NCBI RefSeq assembly: GCF_004122145.1
Contig: NZ_SBKQ01000004.1
Coordinates: forward strand, 186,001 to 250,000
Length of the DNA stretch: 64,000 nucleotides
Source of the DNA: Flavobacterium piscinae
GTDB taxonomy: Bacteria; Bacteroidota; Bacteroidia; Flavobacteriales; Flavobacteriaceae
Direction: 5' to 3'
Shown: positions 23,539 to 63,061 of the stretch, piece after piece
How the letters are laid out: every line of letters starts with the position of its first letter
Numbering within the stretch: position 1 is the first letter of the stretch
The notes under the pieces: generated by a model
Told to the model about the DNA's origin: nothing
The model's input: only the letters and a program-made list of their open reading frames with translations
Database searches by the model: none
Translations under genes and position numbers: made by a program

Positions 23539-23610
23539 AGGCATCGCCCGGATTCGAACCGGGGTAGACGGTTTTGCAGACCGGTGCCTAGCCGCTCGGC
23601 CACGACGCCT
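23539..23610 (-). tRNA. tRNA-Cys (anticodon GCA)
   Basis: The minus strand folds into a 72-base cloverleaf. The acceptor arms AGGCGTC and GATGCCT pair over seven bases with one G-U. The anticodon loop CTGCAAA gives anticodon GCA, cysteine. The T-arm has GGTTCGAATCC. CCA is not encoded. It is preceded by a promoter element and followed by a strong terminator, so it is transcribed alone. Confidence 0.95.
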
Positions 23611-34100: not shown

Positions 34101-36395
34101 TGTCGTTTGACCCACCAATTGAAATTGATAATCCGAAGGTAAATTCGTAATTGTGATACTTCCCGGTGTATTACAAAGAATATTCGTTGTTACATATTGA
34201 ATATCCAATAAATTCGTATAAACATTAAAATAAAAACGGGTAAAACAACCATCTTGATAATTGATCGTCAAGCGATATTGTCCTGCTGTAGTTACATTAA
34301 AATTAGCACCCGTACCAACTTGATTCCATTGACAAGAAGGATTATTATTGGCACATGTATCAATACCAACCGGTGGACAACTCGCTTCATTTAACACCTC
34401 CCAAACGATACTGGTGGCATCGCTGATTCCTGTTTGAATGAGTTGACTGTCATTCGTTCCACAAAGGAAAATGTAAGGCAATTGTTCACCATTATTTGGA
34501 CAAATCACTACCTCATCGGCAAAAGGAATCACCGGATTGGTTTGAGTTGCTCCAAATAATAATACATTAAATGTTTGCGTAATTCCGATACACGGAGGAG
34601 TTGCTGTATTCACCACGGTATAGGTTCCCACACTGGAAACGGTAATCGTTTGTGTATTTCCGATTACTTGATTTGAACTATTGTACCAAGTGTAGGTGTC
34701 GTAGCCATTTGCAGCGGTAAGCGTTAAATCTGTTCCACACAAATAGGCTTCGTTTTCAAAAATACAATCGTCGATATCGACCAAGAAATTCGCCGGACCC
34801 GGTTGACCAAATCCACAACTGTCCAGTCCGGCAAAACTTGGGTCATTAGATATCCAATTACTATTTAATACACCTCTATAAGTTGTATAAGCTTGATTTT
34901 GAATTAAGTTTGAACAAGCGTCTTCTAATTCGCTACAAGTGGTTGCAACTTGAACACGAATACGAATAGTGTAAACAGGATCACCTATTTCAACTAAATT
35001 ATTCGGTAAAGTAAAAACCAATTCATCCAAACCCGGATCATGTGTGAAGGTCACCCCAGGAGCTCCACTTAAATCAGCCGAAATGAAACTGGTATTGATG
35101 GGTAAGATGTCGCGAATGGTTATGTTTGTCGCGTCATCATTCCCTACATTTTGAAATGTAATAACATAATCTAAGAATTGCCCCAGGTTAACATCAGCCC
35201 CACCGATGTCGTTTCCTGCTAAATCTTCTACTGTTTTTACTAATTTAATATCCGGTTCTATGACTTCAATGTTAAACGCATTGAAGAACATAAAGTAAGT
35301 GTCTTGTGTTGAGGTAATTCGCAATGTTGCCGCAGTTTCATTATTTGGAATTACGCTGTTAAGCGGATTAGCTACCGTCATAATATCACCATCGTAACCC
35401 AATGTGTTCAAACTGTTGGGCACTCTGTCCGTATAATCAACATTATTCAGTGTTAATCTACTATTAAAGAAATTGTTAGTTGCGTTTAAGGTATTTCCTA
35501 AGGCGGTAAATGTTGGATTTGAATCTGCTCTAATTAACAACTGATCTCCCGTAATTCGATTATCACCTTCTAAGGCAGCCGAGGCTAATTTTGCTCTTAC
35601 CGGAAATGGCGGAGGTAAAGTGGTAAATCCGGAGTAAGTAATATCTGTTTGTCCAATTGTTGCCCGAACACCGGCAAAACCGTCATAAGCCGTAATGTAT
35701 TTTCCGGTCATGGTTGGATTTTCATAGACAAAGAAAATTGTCCATCCGCCGGAAACTCCTCCCCCATTGATTTGTCCTTGTGTAGCTCTGATGTTCGCTA
35801 CGGTATATTCTCCTTCCGGATTGGCCAAGCCTGTTACTAAAGAAGTAATATCGGCGTAACAAGCATAAGGACTATTGGCAATAAAGTCAGGACTGGTAAA
35901 TCCGTCAAAAATTAATTGTCCGGTGATGTTTTGATAAGCTCCTCCGGGTAATTTTAATCGCACTTGGTTAAAATCATTTTCACGTACATTATCTCCATCT
36001 CCCGGAGAAGTAGAAAACCCGTTGTTGAAACGATAGGTTGCGGACCAATATAATCCTGCATACACAATTTTGTTACAACCGCTTGCGGGTAAAAGTAAGG
36101 ATGCACTACTTGAACTGAAGGTAGAAGGATCTCCATCAATATCAATGTATTGCATGTTGAGATTGTCATTGTATTCCGAAGAATTTCCGGTTTCATTATA
36201 CGGAACATTCGGCCCATCGGAATTGGTTTGTCTGTTTACAATTCCGTTAGAAATTAAAGTCATGTCTCCTTTAAGGTTTCGTTCATAACGAACCGTAAAA
36301 GGAACAGGAACCTGGGCATAGGTGGCCAAGCTCACTAGCAAAAAACAACCGAGTAGGAAGATTGTTTTAAATTGTGGTATTTGGGGCGTTTTCAT
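25155..36395 (-). CDS. Giant SprB-like T9SS-secreted gliding adhesin
   Basis: A 3746-residue cell-surface protein. Signal peptide 1-28. An N-terminal beta-domain (about 29-378) has YIDIDG, TFSSSSA, IVYAGLYWSATY and YTVANIRATQG. A DUF11-like domain (380-540) follows, then a cysteine-bearing bridge. A very long array of SprB repeats runs from about 738 to 3600, each near 75-80 residues with patterns such as CNGGANGS, GGTGxxxYAIS, LAPGNYEIIVQDQNGC and ITEP. The C-terminal gliding-type sorting domain (3665-3746) opens with IPNFFTPNDDGDNDTW. In F. johnsoniae SprB (about 6500 residues) is moved along the surface by the gliding motor. Ten bases separate it from the SprD-like gene upstream. Confidence 0.92.
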   Translation of the reverse strand: MKTPQIPQFKTIFLLGCFLLVSLATYAQVPVPFTVRYERNLKGDMTLISNGIVNRQTNSDGPNVPYNETGNSSEYNDNLNMQYIDIDGDPSTFSSSSASLLLPASGCNKIVYAGLYWSATYRFNNGFSTSPGDGDNVRENDFNQVRLKLPGGAYQNITGQLIFDGFTSPDFIANSPYACYADITSLVTGLANPEGEYTVANIRATQGQINGGGVSGGWTIFFVYENPTMTGKYITAYDGFAGVRATIGQTDITYSGFTTLPPPFPVRAKLASAALEGDNRITGDQLLIRADSNPTFTALGNTLNATNNFFNSRLTLNNVDYTDRVPNSLNTLGYDGDIMTVANPLNSVIPNNETAATLRITSTQDTYFMFFNAFNIEVIEPDIKLVKTVEDLAGNDIGGADVNLGQFLDYVITFQNVGNDDATNITIRDILPINTSFISADLSGAPGVTFTHDPGLDELVFTLPNNLVEIGDPVYTIRIRVQVATTCSELEDACSNLIQNQAYTTYRGVLNSNWISNDPSFAGLDSCGFGQPGPANFLVDIDDCIFENEAYLCGTDLTLTAANGYDTYTWYNSSNQVIGNTQTITVSSVGTYTVVNTATPPCIGITQTFNVLLFGATQTNPVIPFADEVVICPNNGEQLPYIFLCGTNDSQLIQTGISDATSIVWEVLNEASCPPVGIDTCANNNPSCQWNQVGTGANFNVTTAGQYRLTINYQDGCFTRFYFNVYTNLLDIQYVTTNILCNTPGSITITNLPSDYQFQLVGQTTGNILVPYQNNPVFTISDAGVYTVQVTQIGVTDGCVFELPNIGIQENDFQVNLIPENTNCNGFGSIRVQANGAQPQYQFSITNPISATSGWVVDNDYTFNNLNPGTYTVTVVTEDGCTFTGTVTIEDENNLALVASVSQNITCNQGNILVNPSGGQPPYSFAIYSYNGTLLNPTGTDYQTSVIFDIEFGQQGTYVFIVVDANNCTALSNPVTIELVPNVQFTTTVQNINCFGQNDGSIIYNLTSSNGFQVSYQLLDENGNIISTNNSGIFNNLPAGNYTVVLVQSQGNRVCEFPTDFTITEPTPMTGVAEITENYTCITNAGTINIVPGSISGGTAPYQFSIDGVNFVSSSEFAGLTSGNYTIYIQDANGCIFTTNTISLVAPNQLTDLTFSATALTCPSQNATVTVTTVGGTAPFTYQIIAPAGQTLNNGTNPVFAGLTTGTYTFEVTDSNGCIYQETYTINALPIIDVIGQTVSNVVCFGASNGEISFSVTNSNPYNYQIVNSSNTVVASANNSTLSTISLTGLTASTYTITVTDTVTNCTDTTTALVEAPSSALAFTFVANPISCNSNGNLIITATGGWGSYQYQLTQPNGTVLGPQSNATFTNLTQAGTYTISVNDINGCVVSNTFNLTTPTNPVAVIAPSSDLCFDANGATLVIAVTGGVVPYTYSINGNPSQNSNTFANLTPGNYTVIVTDANGCTSTVSQTIQVELTGDISLTKGLDCTASPNAEISALISGGLAPFSYQVSFNGGAFGTSTNVVGNNYVYSTTNAGNYQFLITDAQGCTFNSQTITVEPLTLPEITSVVEVQGILCHGGNDGEIQINTNNAVGLAPFTFEIINTSTGVNFGTQTSGLTAGTYQITLTDANSCTDTASITLTEPNPIAFTIATVDITCNNPGGTSYGEIIVQGVAGGTTPYTYVLNNNFGFIASYTPVTNENHSFQILNFGIYNVEVIDANGCVMMVDNIVIASPPSDLIIDVSASTADCVNGGTAVITVTSAVSSGSYEFAILETNTLPYSSAYQPADAGTPETSTFTGLVPGVTYTFVVHDLVTDCYYFKTADTPINTPSNLTSVLDVIGNVSCTGSNDGFVNFTFDNYDATATSVSYEVFNSQSNSSTGISGTSATTGGPISVTNLGPLAPGIYYILFTENGGTLTGCSSASVPFTITQSTNLLQVTANVTRNDNCQNNRGRISATGQFGTAPYQFQLVIAGNPAPTVGTWVGSATNVFNVEGGNYVIYIRDANNCIQAAPVFVPTDPSPQIAASVTNLCTAAQGDFTIEVTLTTAGIAPYTFSLNGGTFQTQTVPTFTYNNLNSGNYSIRVRDFNGCIHTVNLSIPAPLNLTPSVTAQTSCANNDGIITVTPFGGSGTFTYELQNNVGGVIVAAQASPIFNGLASGNYIVVINDTTTGCSAQAPIELEPATPVTFTTTHNDVSCNGGNDGSINVTLPSSNDNPIYTYVLTDGVNAPISQNNGVFTGLAAGTYTITVISARNCSLQEIIVIDEPALLTVTAMATDFACDASNVVQTSTITATANFGTAPYVYSINGTNFFASNTFTIVDNGSVQNITVTVRDTNNCLASTVVNINPLPTITAVTATTVTNLTCTNDGIVQINVTGGSSDFTFELLPQGSQPAVTPGSGVFNANFTLTEPGTYTFQVTDNVTGCYFVTTPYTIAPFDTIEASIINSSAVTCFGDTDGTITVNVLGYIGNATYDVIDIQGNIVASGSGNTTVNPFVVSGLSGGNYQVVVTATETPFCTATSNFAVVSSPSEPLVLSANETANVTCTNNLGEIFASATGGWGTYQFELVNNSTSTTIQPLGANSLFTGLAAGNYTVTVQDAGGCSISSTVILVQPSLISANLTAANTNLLCNGDTNASVTATNVTGGQGTYQYILNSYDLTGTTIVTSSGAQTSPTFTGLGAGIYSITITDGWNCDFTTNTITITEPTSVVASLTLTSSLTCINDAVITVSASGGTAPYQYSTDGVNFTNTTVYNVGPGTYQFFVRDANNCAVVQTNQITIETIPDLELNLNLNSANINCFGESTATIIANATGGLGNYSYTLFDGANNVIAGPQSSGLFTNLPSGNYTVEVDSVDCNAVSSVIQITDPQELMISNLTVNNVLCNGGANGSVSIQTTGGTGTVQYAISPNLNQFFNTGTFNNLAPGNYEIIVQDQNGCFILLDVEITEPAPLVADVDLTSVVQNLCLGDNDGSFSILITGGTAPYSTSLNNQDPSAFVEGQLSFTGLVGGTDYFIFVKDANGCETIAYIFLDAPVEVIPAIESVVYNCTGNVPGNIVTVSVNASAVGNVQYALDGGNYQASNVFENVPAGNHTISVQHTNGCTKTVDVNIDDNQPLNATLSSVQNVLCNGESTGSVTVDVTGGTGTIEYAISPNLTTFTTNNVFSNLAAGTYDIIVRDGIGCSITQQVIITEPTVLTSNVSALVQELCTGDGNGSITITVNGGVAPYSTSLNNQNNFVANQFTYANLSGGQTYTIFVQDANGCISSIPVTLDAPVTISPTVDVSYICTGNVVGNIVTVTVNAAVENEVTYSLDGGAFQASETFNNVAVGNHTITVRHTNGCEQQVQFTINPSTPIQAVFTQVDVTCHGESTGSFQVSASGGTGILEFAVSPNLMDFGSNQTFTNLPTGNYTVIVRDEIGCTTQLNIAINEPNPLNASLVTMFPDLCAGDNVGAIEISVNGGTAPYSTSLNNENNYTPNRILFENLAGGQSYTIYVRDANGCVTTLEVDVDGGITIAPAANVVYGCVGDSAFNTVTIKVVQEVESDVTYSLDGGAYQNGNVFTNLTNGNHTVSVLHEGGCIETVDFTITNYTPIVLTLAETYQNQFTATTTGGTGNYTYYLNGVNYGYNDVFQILATGTYTVVVEDENGCTAEAQINMEFIDIEIPNFFTPNDDGDNDTWVPENLEGFPRARVEVFDRYGRIITQFGHKGEWDGTYNGSLLPTGDYWYTITLDGGRQFVGNVTLYR
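25630..27760 (-). repeat. Three-copy higher-order repeat within the adhesin gene
   Basis: Near the C-terminal end the SprB repeats fall into a three-module unit of about 720 bases (240 residues), present three times. Module A carries YAISPNL and CNGES; module B carries GGTAPYSTSLNN and GDN; module C carries CTGNV, NIVTV, SLDGGAYQ and HTNGC. Upstream repeats lack this regular order, so the segment looks like a more recent tandem duplication. Boundaries are approximate. Confidence 0.7.
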
Positions 36396-36405
36396 TTTGG
36401 GGTGT

Positions 36406-38388
36406 TTATTTTATGTTAATGTTCATGATCCAAATTTCATCAAAGTAGGTGTTGTCCACATTCGTGTAATAAGAGATTAGGGCTTCACTCCATTCCGAAT
36501 GTTTTTTTAAATAAACATACCTGAAATTGTTTTTTGGGTTAATAAAATAATGGGCTGTAATTCCTCGCTTTTTTAGTTTGTTGATAAAATCATCCGCAAA
36601 AGCAGGTTCGGAAAAAACATTGGAAATAATGTAAAATCCGGGTTCTTGATTTGCTACCTGTAAATAATTTCCTTTTTTGGCTGTAGCTCTCTTTTTGTCG
36701 GTCAGTCTGGAATAATACTCTTTGATTTCTTCATCGGTTAAGGTAAATTTGGAGTTGGTATTTGTTTTTGGTTCTTCTTTTTTGAGTTGGGAAATTTTAG
36801 CTTCCAATTCTGTATTTTTTGAATTATTTTTTTGAGTTGGTAATTTGATTTCTTCTCTTTTAGTTGATGATTTCATAGCGGATAATTTGCTATTCAAATC
36901 ATTTTTATCTTCTTTTACAACAACTGTTTCACCATTTTTAACCGTTGTTTTTGTAGTGGTTTCTACCGTTTTTTCTTCTGTAACTACCGTTGTTTTTGGG
37001 TCGCAATTGCAATCTTTTTCAGCAATGGTTGTTTCTAATCGTTCGATATATAGCATCATGTTTTCAATTCGTTTTTCAAAATCAGCTTTTTTCAAGTTTT
37101 CAAGCGAATCTTGTTTGATAATAATTTCCAATAGTTTTAAATGATTTTCGTCCAACGTCATTTTTAATTTTTCAATTTCAACGTTTTTATTATAGGCTTT
37201 CATTTCTTCGTTTTCTTCCTCTTCAAATTCTACTTGCATTTCAACTTCTGTAATTGCTTTTGATGGTTTTTTCTTTTTCAAAACCGATTTTTTCTTCTTT
37301 GGAGCAGGCTCAATGACAATAGGTTCTTCGGGCATATCCTCATATTCTTCTTCAGCCATATCCTCTTCATATTCTTCCTCAATTTCTTGTGTTTTTTTCA
37401 ATACTTTAGGCTTTTTAACAATAGCTGTGGTCTTCTTTTTTGAAGATGATTTTCTGTTTTGTGTTTCTTCGCTGTCTTTTCCTGCAAATCGATAAGAAAG
37501 TGTAATTTCGTGGGTAGGTCCAAAGTTTACTAATCCATCGTTTATTACTCTTTCATACGTGTAACCTAAAGATAATTTTTTGGTAAAATGAGCTCCAACG
37601 CCAATATTTACTCCAAAGAAATCATCAATTCCTGCTTGTACCCATCCTAAATTCGGAAAATTGGTTATCACCGAACCTCCATACACAAAATCATCGGTTT
37701 GATTCATTTTTCCTCTAGCAATTAATCTGAAAAAACCGTTTTCAAACAATCCTTCTTGGTTTTGCATTTGATGATGATACATTACATGTCCGGTATAGGT
37801 TTTTTGTGCATAATCTTGAACCATTTTACTGGATTTAAAATCATAATCCACAAAGTTTTCTGCATAAATTCCAAAGTCAAAACTTCCCCAGGTTACATTC
37901 AAACCCGGTTTTACAGTTAAAATTGAATTGTTTCGCAGAGCCAAAATGGCCGGATCCGGTTCGTTGGTTACCGCTCTGGTTCTATCCACACCACTATTGT
38001 AATAAGCAATATTAAAACCAAGTGTTAATTTGATTTTTTCTAAAATCGGAATTTGATACGCATAATTACCAACACCTCCAAAACTGGTGATGATTCCCAA
38101 ATTTTGTTGATAAACTCCAATTCCTACCCCTGCTCTTTCACCATATTTCCCGGAATAGGAAAGCATGTATAATTCCGGTGAATCATCAAATTGAATCCAT
38201 TGGTTTCTGTGGTAAAGCGTGAGGTAGGAATTATTTTCTCGAACCACAGAAAATGTTGGATTCATCATGAATCGATTCAACAATAAAGTGTTTTGCGTAG
38301 GTATCGTAAACGTCAATACAGGAGCATCTTGTGCTTGCATAGTAGCAAACACAAATCCTATAAATAGTATTACGAATAGTCTTATCAT
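36406..38388 (-). CDS. SprD-like protein: PorP/SprF domain plus charged linker and SPOR-like end
   Basis: A 660-residue protein with signal peptide MIRLFVILFIGFVFATMQAQ. Residues about 20-305 form a PorP/SprF-type barrel domain (LLLNRFMMNPTFSVVREN, LSLGYTYERV). Residues 305-570 are a Lys/Glu-rich, partly coiled linker. Residues 584-660 form a SPOR-like domain (GFYIISNVFSEPAFADDF, INPKNNFRYVYL, ending NINIK). The same C-terminal domain ends the hybrid protein at 59926-61791. The gene order here (SprC-like, this gene, adhesin, SprF) matches sprCDBF of F. johnsoniae, where sprD mutants spread poorly. It may link the outer-membrane adhesin exporter to peptidoglycan. Confidence 0.75.
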   Translation of the reverse strand: MIRLFVILFIGFVFATMQAQDAPVLTFTIPTQNTLLLNRFMMNPTFSVVRENNSYLTLYHRNQWIQFDDSPELYMLSYSGKYGERAGVGIGVYQQNLGIITSFGGVGNYAYQIPILEKIKLTLGFNIAYYNSGVDRTRAVTNEPDPAILALRNNSILTVKPGLNVTWGSFDFGIYAENFVDYDFKSSKMVQDYAQKTYTGHVMYHHQMQNQEGLFENGFFRLIARGKMNQTDDFVYGGSVITNFPNLGWVQAGIDDFFGVNIGVGAHFTKKLSLGYTYERVINDGLVNFGPTHEITLSYRFAGKDSEETQNRKSSSKKKTTAIVKKPKVLKKTQEIEEEYEEDMAEEEYEDMPEEPIVIEPAPKKKKSVLKKKKPSKAITEVEMQVEFEEEENEEMKAYNKNVEIEKLKMTLDENHLKLLEIIIKQDSLENLKKADFEKRIENMMLYIERLETTIAEKDCNCDPKTTVVTEEKTVETTTKTTVKNGETVVVKEDKNDLNSKLSAMKSSTKREEIKLPTQKNNSKNTELEAKISQLKKEEPKTNTNSKFTLTDEEIKEYYSRLTDKKRATAKKGNYLQVANQEPGFYIISNVFSEPAFADDFINKLKKRGITAHYFINPKNNFRYVYLKKHSEWSEALISYYTNVDNTYFDEIWIMNINIK

Positions 38389-41706: not shown

Positions 41707-41724
41707 TCGTTCATTTTAATGATT

Positions 41725-58564: not shown

Positions 58565-59713
58565 TTATTTTTTATGAATTAAACGGGTTAATTTAATTGA
58601 TAAATCGGTTAAAATAATCTTCGCATTGCCATTGCGTTCAATGTGATACATGGCATCGTTAAGCTCTTGATAAATTGACAGGATATTATTTCCATTGACA
58701 AAAGGTGCAAAATTTTCGAGTTTAAATTTTTCAACTTTTGGTTCCAAATAAACCAATGAAGTGGCTTGATAATTCAACAATAATGCTTGACGGAACATTT
58801 CAATACAAAATGATAAAAATTTCTTTTGTGTTTCACGACCTAGTTTGGCAATTTCCTCACTCCAAGCAATCAATTCTTGAATAGCAGCAGCGTTTCCTTT
58901 GGCTTTAAAGGCAGCACGAACCCAAAGCACAAACCATTGTTCAAAAGGTAAATCTTCGTTATCGTCGCTCAATAATTTCAACGCTTTGTTGTAATTTCCT
59001 TGTGCTTGATGAGCAATTTTTGCAGCTACTTTCGGGTCAAGTTGTTGCCTTTCAATCAAAGCTTCGGCAATTATATTTTCAGGTAAACCATTAAAATCCA
59101 ACACCTGACAACGAGAACGAATGGTTTGAATCAAATCTTCTTCTTTTTCAGTAATCAAGATAAAAACAGTTTTGTCGGTGGGTTCTTCTAATATTTTTAA
59201 AAGTTTATTGGAAGCGGCGATGTTCATTTTATCAGCCATCCAAATAATCATCACTTTATAGCCCCCTTCATAGGCTTTCAGTGAAAGTGTTTTCACAATT
59301 TCTTGAGCATCATCCACACGAATTTCTCCTTGTTTGTTTTCAACACCCAAAATTTTAAACCAATCAAACAAACCACCGTAACAGTTTTCATTTAAAAAAC
59401 TTCGCCAATCTTGAATAAAATCAATGCTTTTGGGTTTCGATTTTACATCTTCAGTAGTTACCGTTGGATAAATAAAATGTAAATCCGGATGAGCAAAATG
59501 TTGAAATTTGAGGTTGCAAGCATCGTTTCCACCGGTATTTTCATTTCCGGTATTATAGCAAAGAAGGTATTGTGCATAAGCAATAGCCATAGCCAATGTT
59601 CCGGAACCTTCTGGCCCAACAAAAAGTTGTGCATGCGGAATACGACCCAGTTGTACACTTCGGGTTAAATGATTTTTGATATGCTCTTGGCCTAATATTT
59701 GTCTGAATTGCAT
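58565..59713 (-). CDS. holB: DNA polymerase III subunit delta'
   Basis: This 382-residue clamp-loader subunit opens with MQFRQILGQEHIKNHL and IPHAQLFVGPEGSGTLAMAI. The P-loop lacks the usual lysine (GPEGSGTL at 33-40), as expected for a delta' subunit that does not hydrolyse ATP. The zinc-type cysteines are partly present (CYNTGNENTGGNDACNL). ADKMNIAASNKLLKILEEP and the SRC motif in IQTIRSRCQVL are diagnostic. A TAnnTTTG element ends only five bases before the ATG, which points to a leaderless transcript. Confidence 0.93.
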   Translation of the reverse strand: MQFRQILGQEHIKNHLTRSVQLGRIPHAQLFVGPEGSGTLAMAIAYAQYLLCYNTGNENTGGNDACNLKFQHFAHPDLHFIYPTVTTEDVKSKPKSIDFIQDWRSFLNENCYGGLFDWFKILGVENKQGEIRVDDAQEIVKTLSLKAYEGGYKVMIIWMADKMNIAASNKLLKILEEPTDKTVFILITEKEEDLIQTIRSRCQVLDFNGLPENIIAEALIERQQLDPKVAAKIAHQAQGNYNKALKLLSDDNEDLPFEQWFVLWVRAAFKAKGNAAAIQELIAWSEEIAKLGRETQKKFLSFCIEMFRQALLLNYQATSLVYLEPKVEKFKLENFAPFVNGNNILSIYQELNDAMYHIERNGNAKIILTDLSIKLTRLIHKK

Positions 59714-59875: not shown

Positions 59876-59883
59876 TACCTTTG
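59876..59883 (+). promoter_or_regulatory. Candidate -7 promoter element for the hybrid SprB-N/SprD-C gene
   Basis: TACCTTTG matches TAnnTTTG, 42 bases before the ATG at 59926. Confidence 0.5.
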
Positions 59884-59925: not shown

Positions 59926-61791
59926 ATGAGTAAGCTTATGAATCGAAAAAGATGTAAAAATTTATTTTTATTACTTTTTATGTCTGTCAGTTGGTGCCAT
60001 GCTCAAATGGCTATTCCTTTTAAAGAGCGATACAAAGTGAATGTAAAAGGCGACATGGCTATTATAGCCAATTCTATCTTAAACCGAATTGATAAAAAAA
60101 ATTCGCCAAACGATCCGTATAACGACCAAAGTATTGATGCCATTACCAACGACGAAATCGATATGGAATACATTGATATTGACGACGATAATCAAACTTT
60201 TTCATCCAGTAGTGCCGCATTATTTCAAAAAGAAGAAGCCTCCAAAAAAATAATTTATGCCGGAATATATTGGTCTGCCACTTACAAATACGAAAGCGGA
60301 TATAAAAAAGGAGAAGACAAGTTTGTTGCTTTTGACAAAACTAGAGAGTCTTTTGAAGAGATATTGGTAAAATTTCCTGATCAAAAAGAGTACAAAACAA
60401 TCAAAGGTGAAATTATTTTTGATGGATTAAAAAATAAAAAGTTTAAAGATGCCGCCCCCTATGCAGTATATGCAGATATTACCCAGCAAGTTCAAGAACT
60501 TGGAAACCCTTTCGGATTTTATACAGTTGCAAATGTAAGAGCCACTCAAGGTACGCTTATAGGTGGTTCTGCTGCAGGTTGGACCATGATTTTTGTGTTT
60601 GAAGACTTATCCATGAGTGAAAAGTTTATTGTTTCAAATGATGGATTCGCTGGGGCTTCAAGTGAAAGTGTAAATGTTGTTTTCAAAGGATTTAAAACCT
60701 TGCCCGAAGGAAATGTTCATGTAAAATTGGCCGGTGCAGCCTTAGAGGGTGATTTTAAAGTGGATGGCGATTTGTTTATGTTTGGTTCAACCAAAAATAA
60801 AGATTTTACTAACGTTAAAACCATTACAAGACGTTACAGTAATTTTTTTGACAGTTCAATCACCATTGAAGACGAACAATTTAGGTACCGGATTCCCGAC
60901 AGTAAAAACACCTTGGGTTATGATTCGTTTTTAACCACTTTATCAAATTATAACAATCGTTTTGTCGGAAATAATTTAGATGAAGCGACGGTTCGATTTA
61001 AGTCATCCGGTGATGTGTTTTATCTTTTTTTTAGTGCAATGGCTATCGAAACTAAACCCTTAAAAGAAGCTCAAGAGGATAATACTAAATTAGTTTACCA
61101 AGATGATAAATTCAAAATAGTAGATAAATCTACGAACAAGGAAGTTGTTCAAAACCAACCTTTACAAGGTTCAGACGATACTTTATTGGCACTAAAGGCA
61201 AAAGAGGCTTTTGTCAAAGAAACTTTAGAAAACCCAAAAGAGATTGTTGAGAAAACTCAAAATAAATCTGTAGAAAAAGAAATACAACAAGACTCAAAAC
61301 CGATTGGAGACTCAAAACCTGAAACTAAAAAAGAAATTGCAGTCAAACCCATAGATACAACCCCAAAAAAAGAAACCGTTGTTAAAAAAGAGGAGCCTAA
61401 AACATCAATAAAAAATGAAGTTTCTACTCAAACTCAATCAGCTGAACCACAACCCAAACCCGTTCTGGCTGTTTCTGATACACTAAAAACCGCAACTCCA
61501 AAAGAAAATGAAGAGTTGGAAATAGAAGTATTAAACGACATCGATTCTCCCAAAGGTTATTATTTAGTGGTCAATGTTTTTAATGAAAGAGTGAATGCTG
61601 CCCGGTTTATGAAAAGTTTGCGTGACAATGGACTCGACCCTAATTATTTTACAAATCCGGCAAACAATTATATGTATGTATACCTCGATTATGTCTCAAC
61701 CAAACAAGAAGCCGAAAAACTTATCGAAAATAAATTAAATAATTCATACACCGAAGAAATGTGGATTTTGATAGTAAACATGAATAAATAA
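59926..61791 (+). CDS. Hybrid protein: SprB-type N-terminal domain plus SprD-type SPOR-like C-terminal domain
   Basis: A 621-residue exported protein. Its signal peptide runs about residues 5-27 (an ATG at 59938 is an equally good start). Residues about 28-390 match the N-terminal domain of the 3746-residue adhesin: YIDIDDD, TFSSSSAAL, IIYAGIYWSATY, GEIIFDG, YTVANVRATQG, DGFAG, LEGD, NTLGYD. A Lys/Glu/Pro-rich linker (about 400-540) follows. Residues 544-621 match the C-terminus of the SprD-like protein: GYYLVVNVFNERVNAARF, NPANNYMYVYL, ending NMNK. There is no T9SS sorting domain, so it probably stays in the periplasm. It may bridge peptidoglycan and surface adhesin machinery. It is monocistronic upstream of pgk. 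Confidence 0.75.
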   Translation: MSKLMNRKRCKNLFLLLFMSVSWCHAQMAIPFKERYKVNVKGDMAIIANSILNRIDKKNSPNDPYNDQSIDAITNDEIDMEYIDIDDDNQTFSSSSAALFQKEEASKKIIYAGIYWSATYKYESGYKKGEDKFVAFDKTRESFEEILVKFPDQKEYKTIKGEIIFDGLKNKKFKDAAPYAVYADITQQVQELGNPFGFYTVANVRATQGTLIGGSAAGWTMIFVFEDLSMSEKFIVSNDGFAGASSESVNVVFKGFKTLPEGNVHVKLAGAALEGDFKVDGDLFMFGSTKNKDFTNVKTITRRYSNFFDSSITIEDEQFRYRIPDSKNTLGYDSFLTTLSNYNNRFVGNNLDEATVRFKSSGDVFYLFFSAMAIETKPLKEAQEDNTKLVYQDDKFKIVDKSTNKEVVQNQPLQGSDDTLLALKAKEAFVKETLENPKEIVEKTQNKSVEKEIQQDSKPIGDSKPETKKEIAVKPIDTTPKKETVVKKEEPKTSIKNEVSTQTQSAEPQPKPVLAVSDTLKTATPKENEELEIEVLNDIDSPKGYYLVVNVFNERVNAARFMKSLRDNGLDPNYFTNPANNYMYVYLDYVSTKQEAEKLIENKLNNSYTEEMWILIVNMNK

Positions 61792-61873: not shown

Positions 61874-63061
61874 ATGAAAACGTTATTCGACTTCAATTTT
61901 AAGAATAAAAAAGCTTTAATCCGAGTAGATTTTAATGTTCCCTTGGATGAAAATTTCAATGTAACGGATGTCAATAGAATTGAAGGAGCAAAACCAACCA
62001 TTGATAAAATTTTGGCCGATGGCGGAAGCGTGATTTTAATGTCACACCTAGGAAGACCTAAAGGGGTAGAAGAAAAATATTCACTTAAACATATCGTTAC
62101 CAAAACAGAAGAAGTGCTGGGGGTTCCTGTAAAGTTTGCTACTGATTGCATCGGAAGTATTGCCGAAAAAGCCGCTGCCGATTTAAAACCGGGAGAAGTT
62201 TTATTATTAGAAAACCTTCGTTTTTACAAAGAGGAAGAAGCAGGTGATGTGGAATTTTCAAAAAAATTAGCTTCTTTAGGCGATATTTATGTAAATGACG
62301 CCTTTGGTACAGCCCACAGAGCACATGCTTCTACAACCATTATTGCTCAGTTTTTTCCGAACGATAAATGTTTCGGAACTTTGTTGGCAAAAGAAATTGA
62401 AAGTCTGAATAAGGTTTTAAAAGACAGTGAAAGACCGGTAACAGCCATTTTGGGTGGTTCAAAAGTGTCCTCCAAAATTACCGTAATTGAAAATATATTA
62501 GACAAAGTTGACCATATGATTATTGGTGGCGGAATGACATTTACTTTTGTGAAAGCCTTAGGTGGAAACGTTGGTGATTCGATTTGTGAAGAGGATAAAA
62601 TGCAATTGGCATTGGATATTTTACATTTAGCAAAAGAAAAAAATGTACACATCCACATTCCGGTTGATGTAGTGGCTGCCGATGCTTTTTCAAACGATGC
62701 CAAAACGCAGATTGTTGATGTTCGTGAGATTCCGAATGGATGGCAAGGTCTTGATGCTGGACCAAAATCTTTGGAAAACTTTAAAGAAGTTATTATGAAT
62801 TCAAAAACGATTTTATGGAATGGTCCTATAGGTGTTTTTGAAATGGAAACTTTTGCAAAAGGCACAATCACATTAGGAAATTATATTGCAGAAGCAACTG
62901 CAAACGGTGCTTTTTCACTTGTTGGCGGTGGAGATTCGGTAGCAGCCGTAAAACAATTCGGTTTAGAACCAAAAATGAGTTATGTGTCAACCGGAGGAGG
63001 AGCAATGTTGGAAATGCTTGAAGGAAGAACCTTACCGGGCATCGCCGCAATTTTGGATTAA
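61874..63061 (+). CDS. pgk: Phosphoglycerate kinase
   Basis: A 395-residue glycolytic enzyme that transfers phosphate between 1,3-bisphosphoglycerate and ADP. The diagnostic stretch [20 protein letters not shown] is at the start. [24 protein letters not shown] and [13 protein letters not shown] follow in the substrate domain. GGSKVSSKI, the GGGM hinge, [13 protein letters not shown] and [13 protein letters not shown] complete the nucleotide domain. The length is normal. It has its own promoter and is followed, after 97 bases, by the transglycosylase gene. Confidence 0.98.

Follow-up and report, generated by a model that had tools for sequence, protein, structure and literature searches.

The fusion gene and its surroundings

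The window (the whole stretch of DNA analysed here, 64,000 nucleotides) contains, at positions 59926-61791 of the forward strand, an open reading frame (ORF) for a protein of 621 amino acids (P0001), referred to here as the fusion, with a head domain like that at the N-terminus of the adhesin SprB and a foot domain like that at the C-terminus of SprD. The features of the locus, and the two homologous domains, are the following:

59876..59883, forward strand: TACCTTTG box, probably the -7 element of a promoter belonging to the fusion gene itself (upstream alignment of orthologues)
59926..60003, forward strand: putative signal peptide, residues 1-26, without lipobox (judged by eye from the sequence)
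60007..61056, forward strand: SprB-type head domain, residues 28-377, 43% identity to the SprB N-terminus (also cropped AF2 model)
61057..61548, forward strand: low-complexity linker, residues 378-541, with AF2 pLDDT of 22-34 across residues 411-530
61549..61782, forward strand: SprD-type SPOR foot, residues 542-619, 38% identity to the SprD C-terminus
35265..36314, reverse strand: homologous head at the SprB N-terminus (alignment to P0001)
36412..36639, reverse strand: homologous SPOR foot at the SprD C-terminus (alignment to P0001)
58565..59713, reverse strand: gene that we take to be holB, left flank of the slot (same neighbour at orthologous loci)
61874..63061, forward strand: gene that we take to be pgk, bounding the slot on the right, 82 bases past the fusion stop (same neighbour at orthologous loci)

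The start codon of sprB lies about 23.5 kb from the fusion ORF. The promoter consensus of Bacteroidota is TAnnTTTG, and the box upstream of the fusion, conserved as TAC[CA]TTTG in all eight orthologues aligned upstream, is presumably a -7 box of this type. The only cysteines of P0001 are residues 10 and 24, the mature protein being cysteine-free; the strongest hydrophobic window begins at residue 13, the best one past residue 40 is weak (1.08), and neither a lipobox nor a second membrane span was found in the sequence. Pfam and NCBIfam recognize neither an SprB repeat nor a T9SS sorting domain in P0001, while both are recognized in SprB (P0003), in agreement with the original prediction that the fusion protein is devoid of them. 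CHU_C is matched by SprB and SprC in the same databases, and the PorP/SprF barrel (PF11751) is matched by SprD (P0002) at E 2.3e-49 and is absent from P0001. Among the Pfam and NCBIfam matches of 36 fusion members, at E values up to 0.1, no type A or type B sorting domain was found, and no CxC twin-cysteine motif, as in SprF, was found in the mature fusions scanned. Since the searches turned up neither a sorting domain nor a lipobox or an additional membrane span, the periplasm, suggested at the outset, is still the best reading of the protein's location.

Homology of the two ends

In single comparisons, the N-terminal part of P0001 matches SprB at 160 identical of 372 positions (43%; 276 bits; E 2e-83), and the C-terminal part matches SprD at 46 identical of 134 (66 bits; E 2e-15). 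Taken alone, the head scores 267 bits against SprB and the foot 58.5 bits against SprD, whereas 100 shuffles reach at most 26.2 and 19.2 bits, respectively, and crosswise controls (head against SprD or SprC, foot against SprB) yield 15-17 bits. The proposed homology of the first ~360 mature residues to the SprB N-terminus and of the last ~78 to the SPOR-like end of SprD is thus upheld, and the likeness is specific, not one of generic folds. The resemblance at the DNA level is weak (66% over 138 bases, plus a 19-base match at E 0.25), so that the gene is neither a recent copy nor an assembly join; with DNA identity this low, and with the gene syntenic in many genomes, recent gene conversion was rejected as well. 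The fusion shares with SprB a head of about 350 amino acids, but lacks the SprB repeats and the T9SS type-B sorting domain, and has a SPOR foot added. With SprD it shares the foot, but the outer-membrane barrel is found only in SprD and the head only in the fusion (head against SprD, 16.9 bits). As to a possible similarity to the DUF3344-like N-domains of surface proteins, one of 36 fusion members gave a Pfam DUF3344 match (E 0.012), too weak to count.

The two AF2 models were built from alignments of nine rows. At full length the model is of low quality (mean pLDDT 49, pTM 0.45), and the cropped model of the head, mostly beta, reaches a pTM of 0.75 with a mean pLDDT of 64. With Foldseek, neither the full nor the cropped model matched anything at E 0.001 or better. 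VIA-align placed jelly-roll domains of GH86 agarases first for both the full (Z 9.8, rmsd 2.8, 125 aligned) and the cropped model (Z 9.5, rmsd 3.1, 129 aligned), with Z scores little higher than the tool's own background of 7-8, and we therefore read from the fold search only that the head is, as modelled, a putative jelly-roll beta sandwich. The other VIA-align rows for the head are carbohydrate-binding modules, protease P-domains, PNGase F, lectins and receptor domains. A sequence search for relatives of P0001 of known structure returned none.

As to the foot, the Pfam SPOR profile (PF05036) matches P0001 at E 0.0015 and 19.3 bits, under the cut-off of 21 bits, and matches 26 of 36 fusion members at E values up to 0.1, the best being 4.3e-10. 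The AF2 model of the foot has the order beta-alpha-beta-beta-alpha-beta, which is also the order in DedD, DamX, CwlC and RlpA, and it aligns structurally to DedD (Z 6.4, rmsd 3.6, 77 aligned), DamX (Z 5.9) and CwlC (Z 5.9), all of them Z values against which the tool cautions. By sequence, a profile built from the feet also matches CwlC (E 7.7e-4), and in the register set by this alignment the glutamine of the SPOR motif 'VQIGAF' corresponds to residue 548 of P0001. In RlpA, this position is represented by Q270, which contacts denuded glycan and which is the sole highly conserved one among the contacting side chains of SPOR domains of known structure (PMC6895207). SprD-type proteins and fusions together supplied 73 distinct feet; a residue occupies this column in 72, and it is the glutamine in none (38 V, 30 I, 2 M, 1 L, 1 T), the feet of SprD and of the fusion both being without it. 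This points away from classical glycan binding, without excluding such binding. As a SPOR domain the foot is distinctive, differing from DedD, DamX, CwlC and RlpA in the replacement of the glutamine by V, I, M, L or T and, in the fusion, in the attachment of an SprB-type head. Two SPOR feet are present in 10 of 30 fusion ORFs.

Distribution and genomic position

Among the matches listed, at least 24 of the 299 Flavobacterium genomes searched contain an ORF with both head and foot, and in one more, G262, head and foot reside on separate ORFs, making a total of 25 fusion genomes, a count from which weak or broken fusions may be missing. The fusion ORF of G092 is cut by a contig end, and G190 and G296 possess tandem copies. 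Seven orthologues came from a scan of named genomes, those of F. lacus CGMCC 1.12504 and F. filum DSM 17961 among them, and every one is flanked by holB and pgk; the F. lacus record is identical to G205 in coordinates and scores and was counted once, so that six genomes were added. The genome of the window encodes a second fusion of 596 amino acids (L036:8354-10144), at a distance of one gene from a pair of genes with C-termini matching that of SprB. In a class-wide sample of 198 genomes (at least four of Flavobacterium) heads and feet occur, and an ORF with both ends at E 1e-8 is present only in the window's genome, with up to seven candidates scored per genome; six loci of other families have an SprD-type foot with no head-bearing ORF in the locus. 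A tblastn search against a phage collection, for a phage origin, gave no match, and nothing was found that links the names RemH or RemI to the gene.

A few observations on related ORFs can be added. The window's genome also encodes a third, distant SprB-type head; its ORF (L037:4176-11471) spans at least 2,432 amino acids and holds several near-identical repeats of ~100 amino acids. Two Flavobacterium ORFs of ~500 amino acids (L028:676-2172 and L032:646-2139) combine a partial SprB-type head (E ~1e-13) with a different C-terminus. In G262, a single contig, the fusion, the SprB head, GldJ and SprA all look broken by stops or frame changes, a pattern that fits sequencing error and gene decay alike.

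The position of the gene is conserved. A copy is flanked by both holB and pgk in 18 of 24 fusion genomes; in two more only one flank is present (G092, at a contig end, and G305, with holB only), and in four (G070, G093, G200 and G285) the copies are solely elsewhere. The same slot was surveyed in 15 genomes out of 27 searched. In five of these (G006, G004, G072, G206 and G032) it is the sprC-sprD-sprB-sprF operon that is found between holB and pgk, identified from the two ends of each locus, not from the whole of sprB, with four extra ORFs between operon and pgk in G206. In six (G002, G007, G010, G012, G024 and G283) holB adjoins pgk with no ORF of at least 120 amino acids between them, in G009 one and in G033 two other ORFs are found there, and in G001 and G005 no holB is present beside pgk. 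Thus the fusion occupies the place of the adhesin operon in other species. An MltD-like gene follows pgk even where the fusion is absent. In the window's genome and in G205, G150, G220 and G147, the fusion is in the slot and the operon resides some 20-28 kb away, beside a relative of the window's gene at 41719. G070 presents a different arrangement, with the fusion ~500 bases upstream, on the same strand, of an extended operon (ORFs of 147 and 429 amino acids followed by SprC, SprD and SprB). In G093, similar to G070 as judged by eye, a 147-aa ORF comes after the fusion, and the contig end truncates the ORF behind it.

The operons themselves vary. In four of the five genomes with an operon in the slot, SprD is 1,162-1,636 amino acids long (L199:10579-15318, L201:10661-14149, L203:2415-7325 and L205:3144-7691), as opposed to 660 in the window, and its foot is more diverged. 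In the window, the only Rfam match at the gathering score is a tRNA gene (23539-23609, reverse strand), ~540 bases downstream of sprF.

Origin and selection

A tree was built from head matches of 280-520 amino acids with identical ones removed (68 rows), omitting three unlabelled rows (L117, L137 and L139, the latter being the SprB head of G220). In the resulting tree of 65 heads, 37 fusion rows, representing 36 genes as one gene of G190 was entered twice, make up one side of a branch supported at 100/100; the tandem copies of G190 and G296 that are cut by locus ends were grouped with the fusions, their full ORFs having the foot. A wider group (98/92) also contains the SprB heads of G259, G150, G278, G205 and the window. 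This tree indicates that the fusion arose once, inside the radiation of SprB heads. The head-then-foot arrangement reverses the sprD-sprB gene order, and therefore a simple deletion cannot have produced it; we infer that it could have come about by tandem duplication and a subsequent deletion.

In a tree of HolB, pgk and MltD sequences of 37 genomes, the fusion-bearing slots form two large clades, one of 10 genomes and one of 12, with G220 and G147 in addition, amounting to three changes of state, as obtained by a quick method in which G147, G009, G150 and G220 have long branches. With the fusion slots mostly in two main clades, vertical descent with losses appears to be the simplest reading. 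For ten close pairs, dN/dS is 0.02-0.09 in the head, 0.04-0.11 in the foot (one value not computable) and 0.03-0.39 in the linker (0.38 against L038 and 0.26 against L039), the low linker values of two-foot copies being due to inclusion of the first foot in what is called the linker there. Purifying selection is also apparent in pairs without SprD and SprF (G063/G071, G164/G063, G120/G221 and G120/G199). By these ratios, both ends are under strong purifying selection. Reading the fusion as a decaying relic of an operon formerly in the holB-pgk slot is hardly credible: it sits in the operon's slot, and in G262 head and foot are on separate ORFs (GldJ and SprA being split there too, maybe by sequencing error), but dN/dS of 0.02-0.11 in both domains (ten pairs, one foot value not computable) speaks for its rejection, and the promoter box is conserved and duplicated and tandem copies exist.

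Co-occurrence with the adhesin operon and the T9SS

The fusion is INDEPENDENCE from SprB in 16 of the 25 fusion genomes, in which neither an SprD nor a true SprF match was found. An SprD match at E 1e-59 or better is present in seven of 24 fusion genomes searched, G000 having its own, and a true SprF (E <1e-90) in eight of 25. Most of the 16 are drafts, with G092 76% complete and G305 showing 6% contamination; for the other 14, completeness is 90% or more and contamination no higher than 5%. In none of the 16 does a long ORF carry a close SprB head; a distant one, 34-36% identical, is found in eight, where its ORF measures 875-1,720 amino acids. As far as the searches reach, SprD accompanies the fusion in all ten genomes of the window's clade and in none of the 12-genome clade; among the six genomes added by the named scan, SprD is full-length in five and represented by a 465-aa part in G517. 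As to the secretion and gliding machinery, SprA is present in all 25 fusion genomes and GldJ is above the cut-off in 24, the exception being G278 (82% complete), counts from fusion genomes whose link to the fusion would be void if both genes were universal in fusion-free genomes as well. Hence, of the two partners expected to accompany the fusion, the T9SS does so (SprA in 25 of 25), and the sprB operon, its genes missing in 16 of 25, does not.

Among the 17 fusion genomes without a true SprF, 14 have another SprF-like carrier, always with a CNCPA[VI]N tail, and in the remaining G092, G190 and G275 no SprF-like carrier was found at E 1e-15. A second SprF-like carrier, ~30-33% identical, is found in loci L150-L163 and L165-L171 (for example, L170:925-1935), and in all 21 loci its tail is a twin-cysteine CNCP[AS][VI]N. 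Five of these loci have a neighbouring ORF with HFSLKR at its end, an ending possible for type-B cargo; the carrier is a candidate for a second track-bound adhesin system. The SprD of the window (36406-38388) possesses a CNC at residues 460-462, its only cysteines, before the foot; the motif is also present in G205, G278 and G150, is absent from the other SprD-type ORFs scanned, some of them cut by locus ends, and recalls the twin-cysteine track link of SprF.

Possible function

In Flavobacterium johnsoniae, SprF carries SprB, the C-terminal tail of SprF is periplasmic and disulfide-bonded to the moving-track protein GldK, and SprC moves on the track (PMC12635249). By homology, the foot of SprD, behind a barrel of the same family as SprF, would face the periplasm. 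We tentatively favour the possibility that the fusion is a periplasmic head-linker-foot adaptor or place-holder of the T9SS/gliding track, serving several adhesins and not SprB only. Such a protein would be exported by Sec and would remain in the periplasm; its foot would sit at the docking place of SprD, and its head, via the flexible linker, would engage or occupy the site met by SprB-type cargo heads before export. The combination of an SprD-type foot, an SprB head and no export signal suggests the periplasm and the SprD docking place, and we infer each step beyond the periplasm. Consistent with an adaptor are the twin-cysteine SprF-like carriers of 14 of the 17 fusion genomes without a true SprF, the presence of SprA in 25 and of GldJ in 24 of 25, the linkage in G070, the second fusion near genes with SprB-like C-termini, and the lack of the glycan-contacting SPOR glutamine in all 72 feet. 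As the fusion is kept under strong selection where the operon seems absent, it is probably more than a helper for SprB alone. Speaking against an adaptor are the three fusion genomes without any SprF-like carrier at E 1e-15 (G092, G190 and G275), the foot without a head-bearing ORF in six loci of other families, and a co-evolution test for head and foot that was not specific. In this test, with pgk accounted for, the distances of SprB heads and SprD feet are correlated (partial r 0.56, 14 genomes), but the partial r is -0.20 once SprF is controlled for (nine genomes); rows with the SprD barrel, available for four or five genomes, were not used. We therefore reject the mirror-tree signal as a sign of head-foot contact, there being nothing specific beyond the shared operon. 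The idea that the two domains work together, put forward in the original prediction, is suggested by the fusion itself, the correlation beyond pgk being lost under control for SprF.

The strongest rival is a role at the cell wall, with the foot binding peptidoglycan, perhaps at the septum, the jelly-roll head binding a glycan or protein there, and the likeness to the adhesin operon reflecting origin only. Such a role would agree with the SPOR fold of the foot, recognized by structure and by sequence, with the two SPOR repeats of 10 of 30 ORFs, with the resemblance of the second half of the head to carbohydrate-binding jelly rolls (the GH86 agarase, Z 9.5), and with the occurrence of the fusion where SprD and SprF were not found. 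The structural Z values, however, lie within the tool's warning range, the foot is closer to that of SprD (E 2e-15, single comparison) than to Pfam SPOR (E 0.0015), and the MltD-like neighbour gives no support, since it is also beside pgk without the fusion. The glutamine that contacts denuded glycan (PMC6895207) is in none of the 72 feet. We regard a wall protein as possible but unlikely.

A second rival is a factor specific to SprB, for assembly or as a decoy, that would bind the periplasmic partner of SprD or SprB and regulate SprB loading. Both ends of the fusion are shared with SprB and SprD, all six genomes added by the named scan have SprD (five full-length, one as a 465-aa part), and in G070 the fusion is linked to the sprB operon. 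On the other hand, SprD and true SprF were not found in 16 of 25 fusion genomes, selection is undiminished in the pairs tested, and, among the matches listed, many genomes with SprB heads are without a fusion. As a general role, the SprB tether or decoy originally proposed is thus refuted by the 16 genomes, and overall we hold an SprB-specific role to be improbable. With fusions in 25 of 299 genomes among the matches listed, and none in many that have an SprB head, the protein cannot be needed for gliding in general.

It is quite improbable, in our estimate, that the fusion is a surface or matrix adhesin that crosses the outer membrane without a sorting domain, for example by riding other cargo, with its head acting outside as that of SprB does. 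The head of SprB is the N-terminus of a T9SS-sorted protein, other long ORFs also have the head, and the second fusion is near two genes with SprB-like C-termini; but no sorting domain was found among the matches of 36 members, and the SprD foot would be periplasmic by analogy with the C-tail of SprF.

A bolder version of the adaptor would have SprB-type heads and SprD-type feet as a genuine binding pair, and the fusion as a periplasmic clasp acting in trans, or even as a head-to-foot chain, on the T9SS/gliding track, marking an adhesin-handling step that persists in a lineage without SprB. This is a long shot, but, if true, it would provide the first function for the SprD foot and a non-glycan role for a SPOR subfamily.

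In conclusion, the anatomy and history of the fusion family are well supported. In the papers searchable, neither the N-terminal head of SprB nor the SPOR-like foot of SprD was found to have a stated function. The open literature searched showed none for the fusion, in accord with the earlier view that none is described, and no paper there was found to describe a head-foot fusion. The fusion is a new combination of known parts, and it occurs in species with and without the adhesin operon. As a small soluble protein of just a head and a foot, it allows each of them to be studied without the rest of an adhesin several thousand residues long. The holB-pgk slot, containing an operon, a fusion or nothing, reveals that the place of the adhesin operon varies within Flavobacterium.
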